Shown here piece by piece: positions 3,273 to 5,069 of a stretch of 64,000 nucleotides of DNA (position 1 is its first letter; each line of letters begins with the position of its first letter). Source of the stretch: Leifsonia sp. AG29 (GTDB taxonomy: Bacteria; Actinomycetota; Actinomycetes; Actinomycetales; Microbacteriaceae); assembly GCF_009765225.1 (NCBI RefSeq), contig NZ_VMSF01000001.1, positions 2,418,001-2,482,000 on the forward strand. The letters run 5' to 3'. Under the pieces are notes generated by a model. That model had not been told where the DNA came from. It did no database searches and saw only the letters and a list, made by a program, of their open reading frames with translations. The position numbers were made by a program, and so were the translations under genes.

Positions 3273-3791
3273 ATGACCTCCCCCGCCTTCATCGCCCTCG
3301 CCGACGGATCGGCGCCGGTCGTCGCCCACGGCGCCTTCGTCGCGGCCGGAGCCGTGCTCGCCGGCCGGGTCCGGCTGGCCGCCACGTCGAGCGTCTGGTA
3401 CAACGCCGTGCTCCGCGCCGAGGCGGAAGACATCGTCGTCGGCGAGCGCAGCAACCTCCAGGACAACGTCTCGTGCCACGTCGACCACGGTTTCCCGCTG
3501 ACTATCGGCGCCGACGTGTCCGTCGGTCACAACGCCGTGCTCCACGGGTGCACCATCGAGGACGGCACCCTCATCGGCATGAACGCGACCGTGCTCAACG
3601 GGGCGGTCGTCGGCGCGGGCTCGCTGCTCGCCGCCGGGACGGTCGTCCTCGAGGGCGCGGTCATCCCTCCCGGGTCGCTCGTCGCCGGGGTGCCCGGCAA
3701 GGTGAGGCGCGACCTGACCGAGGAGGAGCGCGCCGGCATCCTCCGGAACGCGCAGGCGTACCTCGCTCACGTGGAGGAGCACCGGGGCTGA
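3273..3791 (+). CDS. Gamma-carbonic-anhydrase-like hexapeptide protein
   Basis: A 172-residue left-handed beta-helix protein of the gamma carbonic anhydrase/YrdA family. Hexapeptide repeats run through most of the chain (for example NLQDNVSCHVD, TIGADVSVGHNAVLHG, LIGMNATVLNGAVVG). The histidines in CHVDH and GHNAVLHG match the trimer-interface zinc ligands of the family. Many such proteins lack proven carbonic anhydrase activity, so the reaction is inferred. The ATG is 10 bp past the stop of the upstream hydrolase; the pair is probably one transcript. Confidence 0.85.
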   Translation: MTSPAFIALADGSAPVVAHGAFVAAGAVLAGRVRLAATSSVWYNAVLRAEAEDIVVGERSNLQDNVSCHVDHGFPLTIGADVSVGHNAVLHGCTIEDGTLIGMNATVLNGAVVGAGSLLAAGTVVLEGAVIPPGSLVAGVPGKVRRDLTEEERAGILRNAQAYLAHVEEHRG

Positions 3792-3978
3792 GGGGCTGGG
3801 CGCGGGCGCGGGGCTGGGCCGCGGCGCTGGGGGTGAGGCCGCGCTGGGCCGGGGTCCCCTGCCTCGCCGGGCTCGCTGTGCCTCGCCGTGCCTCGCCGTG
3901 CCTCCCCTGGCCTCGTCGCGCCTTCCGCGCCTCGCGTCGCCCTGCGTCCCCGCGCCTCTCCTCGCGCCGGCCCGGCTA
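3792..3978. other. GC-rich non-coding stretch before the palindrome array
   Basis: No gene is supported here. The first part is G-rich (repeated GGGCGCGGG/GGGCTGGG), the second C-rich with near-tandem copies of GTGCCTCGCC around 3885-3903. It lies between two convergent genes and leads into the palindrome array. Open frames across it have no ribosome binding site and no family resemblance. Confidence 0.6.
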
Positions 3979-4411
3979 GATTCGTGCCGAATGCTGCTCT
4001 CCGTGCACGCGGCGCCAACATTCGTGCCGAATGCCGCGGGGGTGCGCCTCCCTGCCCCTCCCGCGTGCCGTCACATTCGTGCCGAATGTCGATAATGGCG
4101 CGCACCTGGGCAACATTCGTGCTGAATGCTGCTGAGGGGGCGCGCCGGGGCGGCCTCCCGCCGGGCCGCATTCGTGACGAATGTGGTCCCGGGAGGGTTC
4201 GTAAGCGACATTCGTGCCGAATGTGGCGTGCGTTGCGCCAAGGCGGCCGGGGCCCCGCCACGTTCGTGACGAATGTGGACGTGGACGGGCACGTCTGCAA
4301 CATTCGTGCCGAATGCGGGCGCGCGCGTGTTTGCTGAGGCCGCCCGGCATAGAGCACATTCGTGACGAATCGGGATTTGGGATGGTGCTTCGGCGACATT
4401 CGGCACGAATG
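3979..4411. repeat. Array of ten paired 15-bp palindromes
   Basis: Ten copies of CATTCG-TGM-CGAATG (6-bp arms, 3-bp centre) start at 3979, 4019, 4074, 4114, 4169, 4209, 4261, 4301, 4357 and 4397. Start-to-start distances alternate 40, 55, 40, 55, 40, 52, 40, 56, 40, so the array is five pairs. Within a pair the gap is always exactly 25 bp; between pairs it is 40, 40, 37 and 41 bp. The gap sequences differ, but the second member of each pair is preceded by CAA or CGA. The centre is TGC or TGA in nine copies and GCA (inverted) in the last. Single arm mismatches occur at 3979, 4114, 4261 and 4371. It could be a protein-binding array, a REPIN-like element or a hairpin RNA. Confidence 0.85.
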
Positions 4412-4420
4412 TCGACGGGC

Positions 4421-4553
4421 GGCGCGGCAGCGGCGCGCAGCGGCGGCGCGGCAGCGGCGCGCGGCAGCGGCGCGCAGCAGCGGCGCGCGGCAGCGGCGCG
4501 CAGCAGCGGCGCGGCAGCGACGCGGCAGCGACGGCGCGCGCAGCGACGCAAGC
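4421..4553. repeat. Low-complexity GCAGCGGCGC tract
   Basis: About 130 bases made almost only of G and C, built from imperfect tandem copies of GCAGCGGCGCGC with GCGGCAGC variants. It begins about ten bases after the last palindrome of the array and ends at the stop codon of the minus-strand ybaK-like gene. Frames that run through it encode only Ala/Arg/Gly-rich strings. It looks like slippage-driven expansion. Confidence 0.75.
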
Positions 4554-4556
4554 GCC

Positions 4557-5069
4557 TCAGCGCGCGGCGCCGGGCTCCACCGGGGCGACCTCGCCGCCGG
4601 TGATCCGCACCAGCTCGGCGAACGTCGTCGGGAAGACGGTGTGGGCGTGGCCCGCGGCCGCCCACACCTCCGGGTAGCCCGCGAGCTGTTCGTCGACGAC
4701 GGTGCGCAGGGGCGCCGGGTGCCCGACGGGCGCCACGCCGCCGATGGTCTGTCCGGTCGCCGCCTTGACCGTGTCGGGGTCGGCCCGGCGGATGAGTCCG
4801 CCGAGCCTCTCGCCGAGGTAGGCGGTGTCGACGCGATGCGCGCCGGACGTCATGACGAGGAGGGGCTCCCCGTCGATCGTGAACACCAGCGAGTTCGCGA
4901 TGGCGCCCACCTCGACGCCGAGCTCCGCCGCGGCGGACGCGGCCGTCGGCGTCGCGGTGTCGAACCACCGCACCCGCGGTTCCACGCCCGCCGCGATCAG
5001 CGCCGCCTCCACCCGCGCGACGGCGGGGTGACCGCGCTCGGCACGCTCGGCGCGCTCGGTGCCGCTCAC
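4557..5069 (-). CDS. YbaK/EbsC-family aminoacyl-tRNA deacylase
   Basis: A 170-residue single-domain protein of the YbaK/ProX/EbsC family, which hydrolyses mischarged tRNAs such as Cys-tRNA-Pro. Family features include [24 protein letters not shown] in the middle (here given only as a landmark between residues 58 and 81) and the GGVAPVGH turn near residue 112. The conserved lysine is in [11 protein letters not shown]. Its start overlaps the folD stop by four bases (ATGA), so it is the last gene of glyA-folD-ybaK. The N-terminus [10 protein letters not shown] comes from a short DNA repeat. Exact tRNA specificity cannot be read from the sequence. Confidence 0.85.

Follow-up and report, generated by a model that had tools for sequence, protein, structure and literature searches.

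A candidate REPIN-like hairpin element in Leifsonia and its association with a predicted Vsr-type nuclease gene

The ten short palindromes that occupy a convergent intergenic region of Leifsonia sp. AG29 are best read as a tandem array of five partly decayed copies of a REPIN-like, non-autonomous hairpin element of ~55 bp, belonging to a population of such elements that would be served by a nuclease outside the HUH family. We put the probability of this reading at about 0.7. The association between the element and the nuclease gene is well supported by observation, and the mobilisation of the hairpins by the nuclease is what we infer. Genomes and loci are cited below by G and L numbers.

The array in the window and the anatomy of the pair

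The window (the whole 64-kb stretch of DNA that was analysed, C1:2418001-2482000 of a genome of 3,680,396 bp) contains ten matches to CATTCGNNNCGAATG, at 3979, 4019, 4074, 4114, 4169, 4209, 4261, 4301, 4357 and 4397. Six are exact and four have one mismatch, and no further site with two or fewer mismatches was found anywhere in the 64 kb; at exactly three mismatches there are 10 more window sites, and a shuffled window gives 24.6 matches at three or fewer. The sequence-only reading of the window had reported ten palindromes with start distances of 40, 55, 40, 55, 40, 52, 40, 56 and 40, set between convergent genes, with CRA ahead of each second palindrome and a GCA centre in the last one, and each of these details was recovered. 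The features of the region are as follows.

3273..3791, + strand: left neighbour, hexapeptide-repeat (left-handed beta-helix) protein, Pfam Hexapep PF00132; context only; its stop codon lies 187 bp from the array
3792..3968: GC-rich low-complexity imperfect tandem repeats, periods 10-20, left of the array
3979..4033: pair 1, ~55-bp element; palindromes 3979-3993 (one mismatch) and 4019-4033; centres TGC/TGC; fold z -2.55
4074..4128: pair 2; palindromes 4074-4088 and 4114-4128 (one mismatch); centres TGC/TGC; fold z -0.85, degraded
4169..4223: pair 3; palindromes 4169-4183 and 4209-4223; centres TGA/TGC; fold z -3.52
4261..4315: pair 4; palindromes 4261-4275 (one mismatch) and 4301-4315; centres TGA/TGC; fold z -4.33
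4357..4411: pair 5; palindromes 4357-4371 (one mismatch) and 4397-4411; centres TGA/GCA; fold z -1.68
4419..4549: GC-rich low-complexity imperfect tandem repeat, periods 13, 24 and 63, right of the array
4557..5069, - strand: right neighbour, convergent, aminoacyl-tRNA editing domain (YbaK-type) protein, Pfam tRNA_edit PF04073; context only

Between 3300 and 5300 of the window, no known structured RNA was matched in Rfam 15 at E up to 1, and a profile search found no copy of the nuclease family gene within the 64 kb. At the orthologous ybaK locus, a counterpart of the array was absent from all 23 congeners examined.

That the unit of repetition is the pair, of ~55 bp, follows from the spacing in the organism's own genome, where 59 of 63 palindromes are partnered at exactly 40 bp (loci L001-L030, L204, L444 and L453, one mismatch allowed). 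Each pair is an element able to fold into a single hairpin. Forty pairs sampled from the genus gave a mean fold z of -6.1 against dinucleotide shuffles, a value that is partly so by construction because the sampled pairs were picked by their palindromes. In the 256 distinct genus pairs, whose arms were set by the search pattern, the gap departs from randomness. There, W (A/T) is dominant at positions 15, 20-22, 32-34 and 39 of the 53-mer in a mirror-symmetric pattern, and 10 of the 12 mirror positions in 95 non-redundant gaps are complementary more often than in shuffled sequence (z up to 3.6), the remaining two showing no excess pairing (z -0.3 and -1.8). The arms are symmetric, and the 3-nt centres of the 256 pairs are the same in 155, complementary in 85 and otherwise in 16. 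With fold z values from -0.85 to -4.33, the five pairs of the window look partly decayed.

The 25-bp gap inside each window pair had been described as fixed in length and free in sequence. Its length is indeed fixed, but calling its sequence not conserved was too strong: pairwise identities among the five gaps range from 0.32 to 0.60, and the gaps look like diverged relatives because 7 of the 10 comparisons exceed the 95% shuffle level of 0.40. Several other arrays in the same genome are tandem duplicates of an 85-97-bp unit consisting of a pair and its linker. A CRISPR array was considered and rejected, as the repeats are 15 bp, the window gaps are mutually related and the units of other arrays are tandem duplicates. 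An RNA made of hairpin pairs, which had also been suggested, survives as the folding potential of the pairs, and a dimeric protein that binds two sites may still be part of the mechanism. As a separate observation, the elements at G016:C15:29189 and G021:C1:1340775 share an identical 27-nt spacer (reverse-complemented), and differ in all four arms (ATTTG versus ATTCG), a change that amounts to C to T in CpG on both strands.

Distribution of the pairs and the gene at the fadD/epimerase junction

The AG29 genome holds 180 exact copies of ATTCGNNNCGAAT, with none for the backwards control. Pairs at 40 bp occur in 22 of 28 Leifsonia genomes including its own, which has 67 strict pairs, dispersed copies that were missed when the window array was viewed alone; 21 of 27 congeners have 3-335. 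None were found in 32 genomes outside Leifsonia (nine from other genera of the family, 23 from other families of the order), and among 80 stretches listed of at least 120 found in a scan of 84,980 species, 78 were from Leifsonia, one was from Microbacterium and one was from a Bacteroidia MAG. The paired-array view, which was to fail if relatives showed random spacing or scattered single palindromes, thus passed, since both the relatives and the organism's own genome show 40-bp pairs; the count of spacings over genus loci is biased, most of those loci having been chosen by a pair pattern. Two further sets of repeats were seen in passing: an array of ATTCGGNNCGAAT-like palindromes in the Bacteroidia MAG (L113, 1087-1345), and a second family of ATTTGCSGCAAAT-like pairs beside ATTCG pairs in the same genomes (G026 matches, L167 and L114).

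In most Leifsonia species examined, the convergent junction of fadD and an epimerase gene carries an insert of ~1 kb composed of one or more pairs, a gene and a further pair, the first palindrome of the 3' pair encoding the C-terminal end of the protein. The copy in AG29, with its flanking element, is at C1:1973705-1974601, elsewhere in the genome from the array, and went unseen in the sequence-only reading. The gene is present in all 22 Leifsonia genomes that have ATTCG pairs; 21 of these copies are without stops in the match, eight of them (G005, G008, G009, G010, G014, G020, G024 and G026) being unmatched over the first 19-33 residues of the query, and the copy in G011 is interrupted, yet that genome keeps 14 pairs. 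The six pair-less Leifsonia genomes have an empty junction (G004 and G007, 12 and 18 bp), a split copy (G006), a divergent copy (G012, 53% identical and with another flanking repeat) or no match at the locus (G017 and G022). This split of gene and pairs over 28 genomes has p = 2.7e-6 when relatedness is ignored. Because G004 and G007 lack pairs everywhere, they do not show the unit moving independently.

The encoded protein of ~300 aa is predicted to be a nuclease of the Vsr/PD-(D/E)XK type on the basis of weak Pfam matches. Four proteins matched MTES_1575 (PF18741) at E 3.5e-8 to 2.1e-7 with 31.4-33.8 bits against a cut-off of 38.2, and the same four scored 13.5-19.7 bits against DUF559 (PF04480), whose cut-off is 20.6; a PDB profile search gave nothing meaningful (best E 0.46). 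Residues E198, D231, E242, G245, D246 and H248 are invariant in all 21 aligned sequences (20 from the fadD locus and the G012 paralogue), and the acidic residues and histidine among them, E198, D231, E242, D246 and H248, are putative active-site-like residues; the alignment leaves out G010, and the pattern-picked gene set leaves out L245 (G008) and four paralogues. The N-terminal part is weakly AbiEi-like (PADLOC E 1e-4 to 4e-3).

Upstream of the nuclease genes, TCCACA/TGTGGA occurs in 39 of 50 and 21 of 22 loci, compared with 1 of 50 and 1 of 22 downstream (L235-L256, L258-L264, L393-L411, L414-L418 and L435-L456; in total 60 of 72 upstream and 2 of 72 downstream). The motif mostly lies 40-100 nt upstream of the family gene match, sometimes as two or three boxes, with an extended consensus of about GTTnTCCACAG. 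We take it to be the core of a DnaA box, whose actinobacterial form is TTGTCCACA, and our guess is that expression of the nuclease gene may be coupled to replication.

The subtype of the dispersed elements partly follows the flanks of the genome's own gene. All 18 G010 pairs and all 12 G024 pairs contain a middle palindrome, which is also present in the gene flanks of those genomes, and it is found in 0 of 15 G021, 0 of 11 G002 and 0 of 4 G016 pairs, where the gene flanks likewise lack it (the G021 and G002 counts include the pairs that flank their own genes). It is seen in 10 of 15 pairs of L. shinshuensis, 0 of 55 of CL147 and 0 of 3 of C5G2, in all three of which the gene loci are unassigned, and in 0 of 4 of G001, which has no strict pair at its gene. 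An early view in which ATTCG was the only arm was broadened when ATTTG-like gene ends were found in G003, G018, G013, G025 and G001 and a 20-bp pitch at the same gene in G009, G005, G020 and G014. ATTTG pairs number 37 in G018, 37 in G025 and 33 in G013, and the gene ends are ATTTG in all three, which also hold 25, 41 and 26 ATTCG pairs, respectively. The agreement is loose: besides the mixed L. shinshuensis set and the ATTCG pairs of G013, G018 and G025, G001 and G003 have ATTTG-like gene ends with only 2 and 1 ATTTG pairs and 17 and 12 ATTCG pairs, and ATTTG pairs occur despite ATTCG gene ends in G016 (17), G009 (11) and G026 (9).

Trees of the nuclease and the epimerase were built from 14 genomes, the epimerase pattern having been found in 14 of 21, and G003 is not among them. 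In the nuclease tree, the ATTTG genomes (G001, G025, G013 and G018) form a clade with support of 98/98 and those with the 20-bp pitch (G009, G005, G014 and G020) a clade with 100/99. Neither clade is seen in the epimerase tree, which is poorly resolved, and vertical descent of the gene therefore rests on its shared position rather than on matching trees.

Twin flanks and element copies beyond Leifsonia

In a twin-flank test, the sequence left of each of 58 family genes was aligned to the sequence on its right, a score of at least 19 counting as a pass. The first 36 comprise 26 from other genera of the family, six Leifsonia paralogues and four of the 22 Leifsonia fadD-locus genes; the other 22 are all the further listed matches of a phylum-wide search, in which 11 of 296 genomes matched, and include two paralogues from the AG29 genome. 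Matching flanks were found for 47 of the 58, compared with 7 of 784 ordinary genes of 150-600 aa from a single genome, G021, a control that is not matched genome by genome. Those seven include a gene with ATTCG pairs at its flanks and a paralogue from the family. Against mismatched flanks, 29 of the 36 lie above the 99% level of 1258 controls, a level used because the control maximum (80) reflects related genomes, and 18 of the 22 lie above the maximum of 428 controls.

On at least one side, 35 of the 47 passing genes have a hairpin with fold z below -2.5, a count made for family genes only. The other 12 fold poorly, including L239 (G021), and a few passing flanks look like simple repeats (L440 and L454, for example). 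The 11 genes below the cut include the G012 fadD-locus gene and the AG29 paralogue L444; L412 and L413 are cut by contig ends, so that their flanks are misplaced, and L398 scores 16.5, although its flanks look alike. By eye, the two flanks of a given gene are almost identical, and those of different genes mostly differ. The gene unit is absent in a relative in two further comparisons, the G003 paralogue with G022 (L263 vs L200) and G086 with G021 (L414 vs L301). A plasmid search matched only 3 of 72,556 records, weakly and all from Arthrobacter.

Copies apart from a gene also occur outside Leifsonia. The pattern GGTGCGAAA...TTTCGCACC was found in 4 of 199 genomes of the family (eight copies in G172, four in G156 and one each in G103 and G242; backwards control 0), all four belonging to the 36 with a close homologue. 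The G103 match is the gene's own flank, and the listed gene of G242 has another repeat. The pattern CGAGAGTGC...GCACTCTCG was found in 5 of 8 genomes tried (G112 6, G229 4, G223 3, G177 2 and G100 2; backwards control 0); these five were picked for having a close homologue, and the three without a match (G169, G122 and G127) have none. Gene-flanking copies account for 2 of 6 in G112, 1 of 3 in G223 and 1 of 2 in G100. When 16 copies were inspected with 1.5 kb on each side (3-kb loci), using a profile search that recovered 48 of 48 positives, 12 had no adjoining family gene, so solitary copies exist in other genera; the four beside a family gene are in G103, G100, G223 and, for one copy next to a split family gene, G177. 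For G229 and G177, the repeat code was not linked with any family gene that is intact. Across 17 copies, with related ones kept, the inner arms had a pairing of 0.729, compared with 0.538 for shuffled partners (0 of 2000).

In the species scan, the lone Microbacterium match adjoins a family gene, and the far side of that gene carries a matching repeat; a family gene was present in 3 of the 80 stretches listed of at least 120 found, namely the G021 and G002 fadD loci and the Microbacterium one. Taken at its widest, a proposal to which we give slightly better than even odds, these would be selfish elements that occur across the Actinomycetota independently of REP/RAYT and combine a Vsr-fold nuclease with a co-diversifying private hairpin of ~55 bp, each gene having its own code at both ends; in some lineages, Leifsonia among them, the nuclease would have multiplied the hairpin to hundreds of extragenic copies.

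Competing explanations, proposed mechanism and known systems

A role in transcription termination is a serious second function or rival. The elements would then be bidirectional terminators or 3'-end stabilisers multiplied by duplication and gene conversion, and the nuclease gene would use them as insulators, an account that is tentative, though with an appreciable chance of being right. It fits the hairpin folding and the placement: of 107 clusters classified with a simple gene caller, after 17 edge clusters were excluded, 60 sit in convergent gaps, often at 8-25 bp from each of the two stop codons, and 9 in divergent ones, while the background gaps of at least 60 bp near the clusters are 101 convergent, 211 tandem and 136 divergent; in 1.2 Mb of G021, convergent gaps hold 7 of 15 sites and make up 169 of 1022 gene pairs. 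However, 3 of the 15 G021 sites are divergent, no T-run adjoins the pairs of the window, and ATTCG pairs are missing from the six Leifsonia genomes that have no intact close orthologue of the nuclease. A terminator, moreover, needs no exact arms, whereas the arms here are almost the same throughout a genome and in part track the flanks of the nuclease gene.

The exact 40-bp spacing, the 20-bp spacing at the gene of some species and the W/S base pattern with its rhythm of about 10 bp would also suit operators of a chromosome-wide DNA-binding protein, either the N-terminal part of the nuclease or another protein, with two dimers about four helical turns apart and copies kept by selection for binding rather than by mobility. 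This is unlikely, as few elements lie in divergent (promoter) gaps, copy number runs from 0 to 335 between congeners, and many elements of other genera are, by eye, one long inverted repeat without two local palindromes, although two are retained in L416 and L399. A cassette for anti-phage defence or with a toxin-antitoxin function (AbiEi/Vsr-like), in which the hairpins serve as self-recognition marks and the dispersed copies as decoys or immunity sites, is a doubtful candidate at best: the weak PADLOC matches to AbiEi point that way, and the MTES_1575 REase domain is named in a conflict-system survey (PMC3710099), but the units viewed hold one gene and as many as 335 copies exceed what self-marking needs. 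A plain local tandem repeat (VNTR) with chance palindromes is hardly credible, for all that several arrays in the AG29 genome are clear tandem duplicates, since the 40-bp pair is repeated at numerous unlinked loci and in other species of the genus, and the backwards pattern gives no match.

Of the three suggestions made from the window alone, the REPIN-like mobile element is the one favoured; the proteobacterial REPIN enzyme, Y1/HUH (PF01797), is found in 0 of 28 Leifsonia genomes. Under this preferred reading, the nuclease would recognise the hairpin that belongs to it, either extruded as a cruciform or single-stranded during replication, and would cut at or near it, so that the hairpin is copied or moved and, more rarely, the whole hairpin-gene-hairpin unit. 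Copies would settle at sites that tolerate them, mostly gaps where the 3' ends of two genes meet; local arrays would arise afterwards through tandem duplication, and selection or repair may keep the arms paired as the spacer drifts. No event of excision, insertion or cleavage was seen, nor any clear target-site duplication. Movement must be rare now, because of 47 G016 sites 15 could be compared with G021, and every one of these holds an element in both genomes. In unselected sequence, 9 of 9 sites are shared between these genomes, one being reduced to one palindrome, and some shared sites have a quite different spacer; a tally over loci chosen for holding an element (shared in 141 cases, absent in 2, with 16 near-identical cases excluded) was discarded as biased by that choice.

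Two further observations concern the sites themselves. At L205 (G021:C1:12312-13464), ATTCG pairs lie on either side of a gene for a putative double GNAT acetyltransferase; in the twin-flank test this gene scored highest (48) of the 784 ordinary G021 genes, and it is possible cargo. Different repeat families occupy the same convergent junction in different species (L091 vs L277 and L416 vs L067), which implies either reuse of junctions or rewriting of elements where they stand.

Comparison with REP/REPIN-RAYT systems shows a shared architecture. In REPINs, short palindromes are paired across a hairpin-forming spacer that is conserved in length and variable in sequence, with compensatory changes (PMC3116915), and in REPtrons the enzyme gene is often flanked by its own repeat family (PMC6006769). 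The Leifsonia elements are likewise dispersed and extragenic, occurring as singles and clusters; their two palindromes stand at a fixed distance, exactly 40 bp, and can fold together, and an enzyme gene is flanked by its own dispersed repeats, although the enzyme is non-homologous and the arrangement is looser in other genera. There are also differences. A RAYT/Y1 transposase was ruled out as the enzyme by the search for PF01797, which detected it in none of the 28 Leifsonia genomes and in 5 of 14 control genomes; no GTAG/CTAC foot motif was present in 3931-4460, where one GGAG and five CTCC occur, none directly adjoining a palindrome; and the Leifsonia palindromes are nearly symmetric themselves, with centres pointing the same way in 155 of 256 pairs, whereas 93% of REPINs are reported to be inverted (PMC3116915). 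The Leifsonia system therefore works like a REPtron, similar in geometry and logic, and is not a member of that family, the HUH/Y1 enzyme not having been found.

Other systems resemble parts of this one. In TIRtrons, too, a gene (TIRYT) lies between repeats of its own, some of which recur elsewhere in the genome (PMC3733652); they differ in their HUH/Y1 enzyme and long terminal inverted repeats, whereas Leifsonia-type ends are often a complete hairpin of ~55 bp. The CGTC REPs of the same source are dispersed palindromic repeats apparently without a dedicated transposase, but have another sequence signature, and its accessible text describes no link to an MTES_1575/DUF559 gene (PMC3733652). The conflict-system survey classes the MTES_1575 REase as a novel Vsr-REase (PMC3710099). 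The Leifsonia protein shares conserved acidic and histidine residues and weak Pfam matches with the Vsr/DUF559/MTES_1575 nucleases, for which the literature seen, in part, describes no dispersed cognate hairpins. A search of the open-access literature, with subscription papers and preprints outside its scope, gave no link between DUF559/MTES_1575 and hairpins and no description of the Leifsonia repeat, which is weak evidence of novelty. Nuclease genes are otherwise familiar as selfish or repeated elements, in the mycobacterial REP13E12 repeats (DUF222-HNH) and the Vsr-like (EDxHD) homing endonucleases, which have a different nuclease domain or a different target logic.

Bacteria often carry REP-type repeats, whose spread, as far as it is known, involves a single enzyme family, HUH/Y1. 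If the preferred reading is true, a second, unrelated nuclease family would have come to serve such repeats, and the combination of a hairpin with a private nuclease would be evolvable more than once. The twin-flank test could also be applied to repeats for which no transposase is known, the CGTC REPs for instance. The naturally occurring enzyme-hairpin pairs would provide material for reading how a protein recognises a hairpin, and a set of DUF559/MTES_1575-like genes in actinobacteria, so far without an assigned function, would gain a suggested role.
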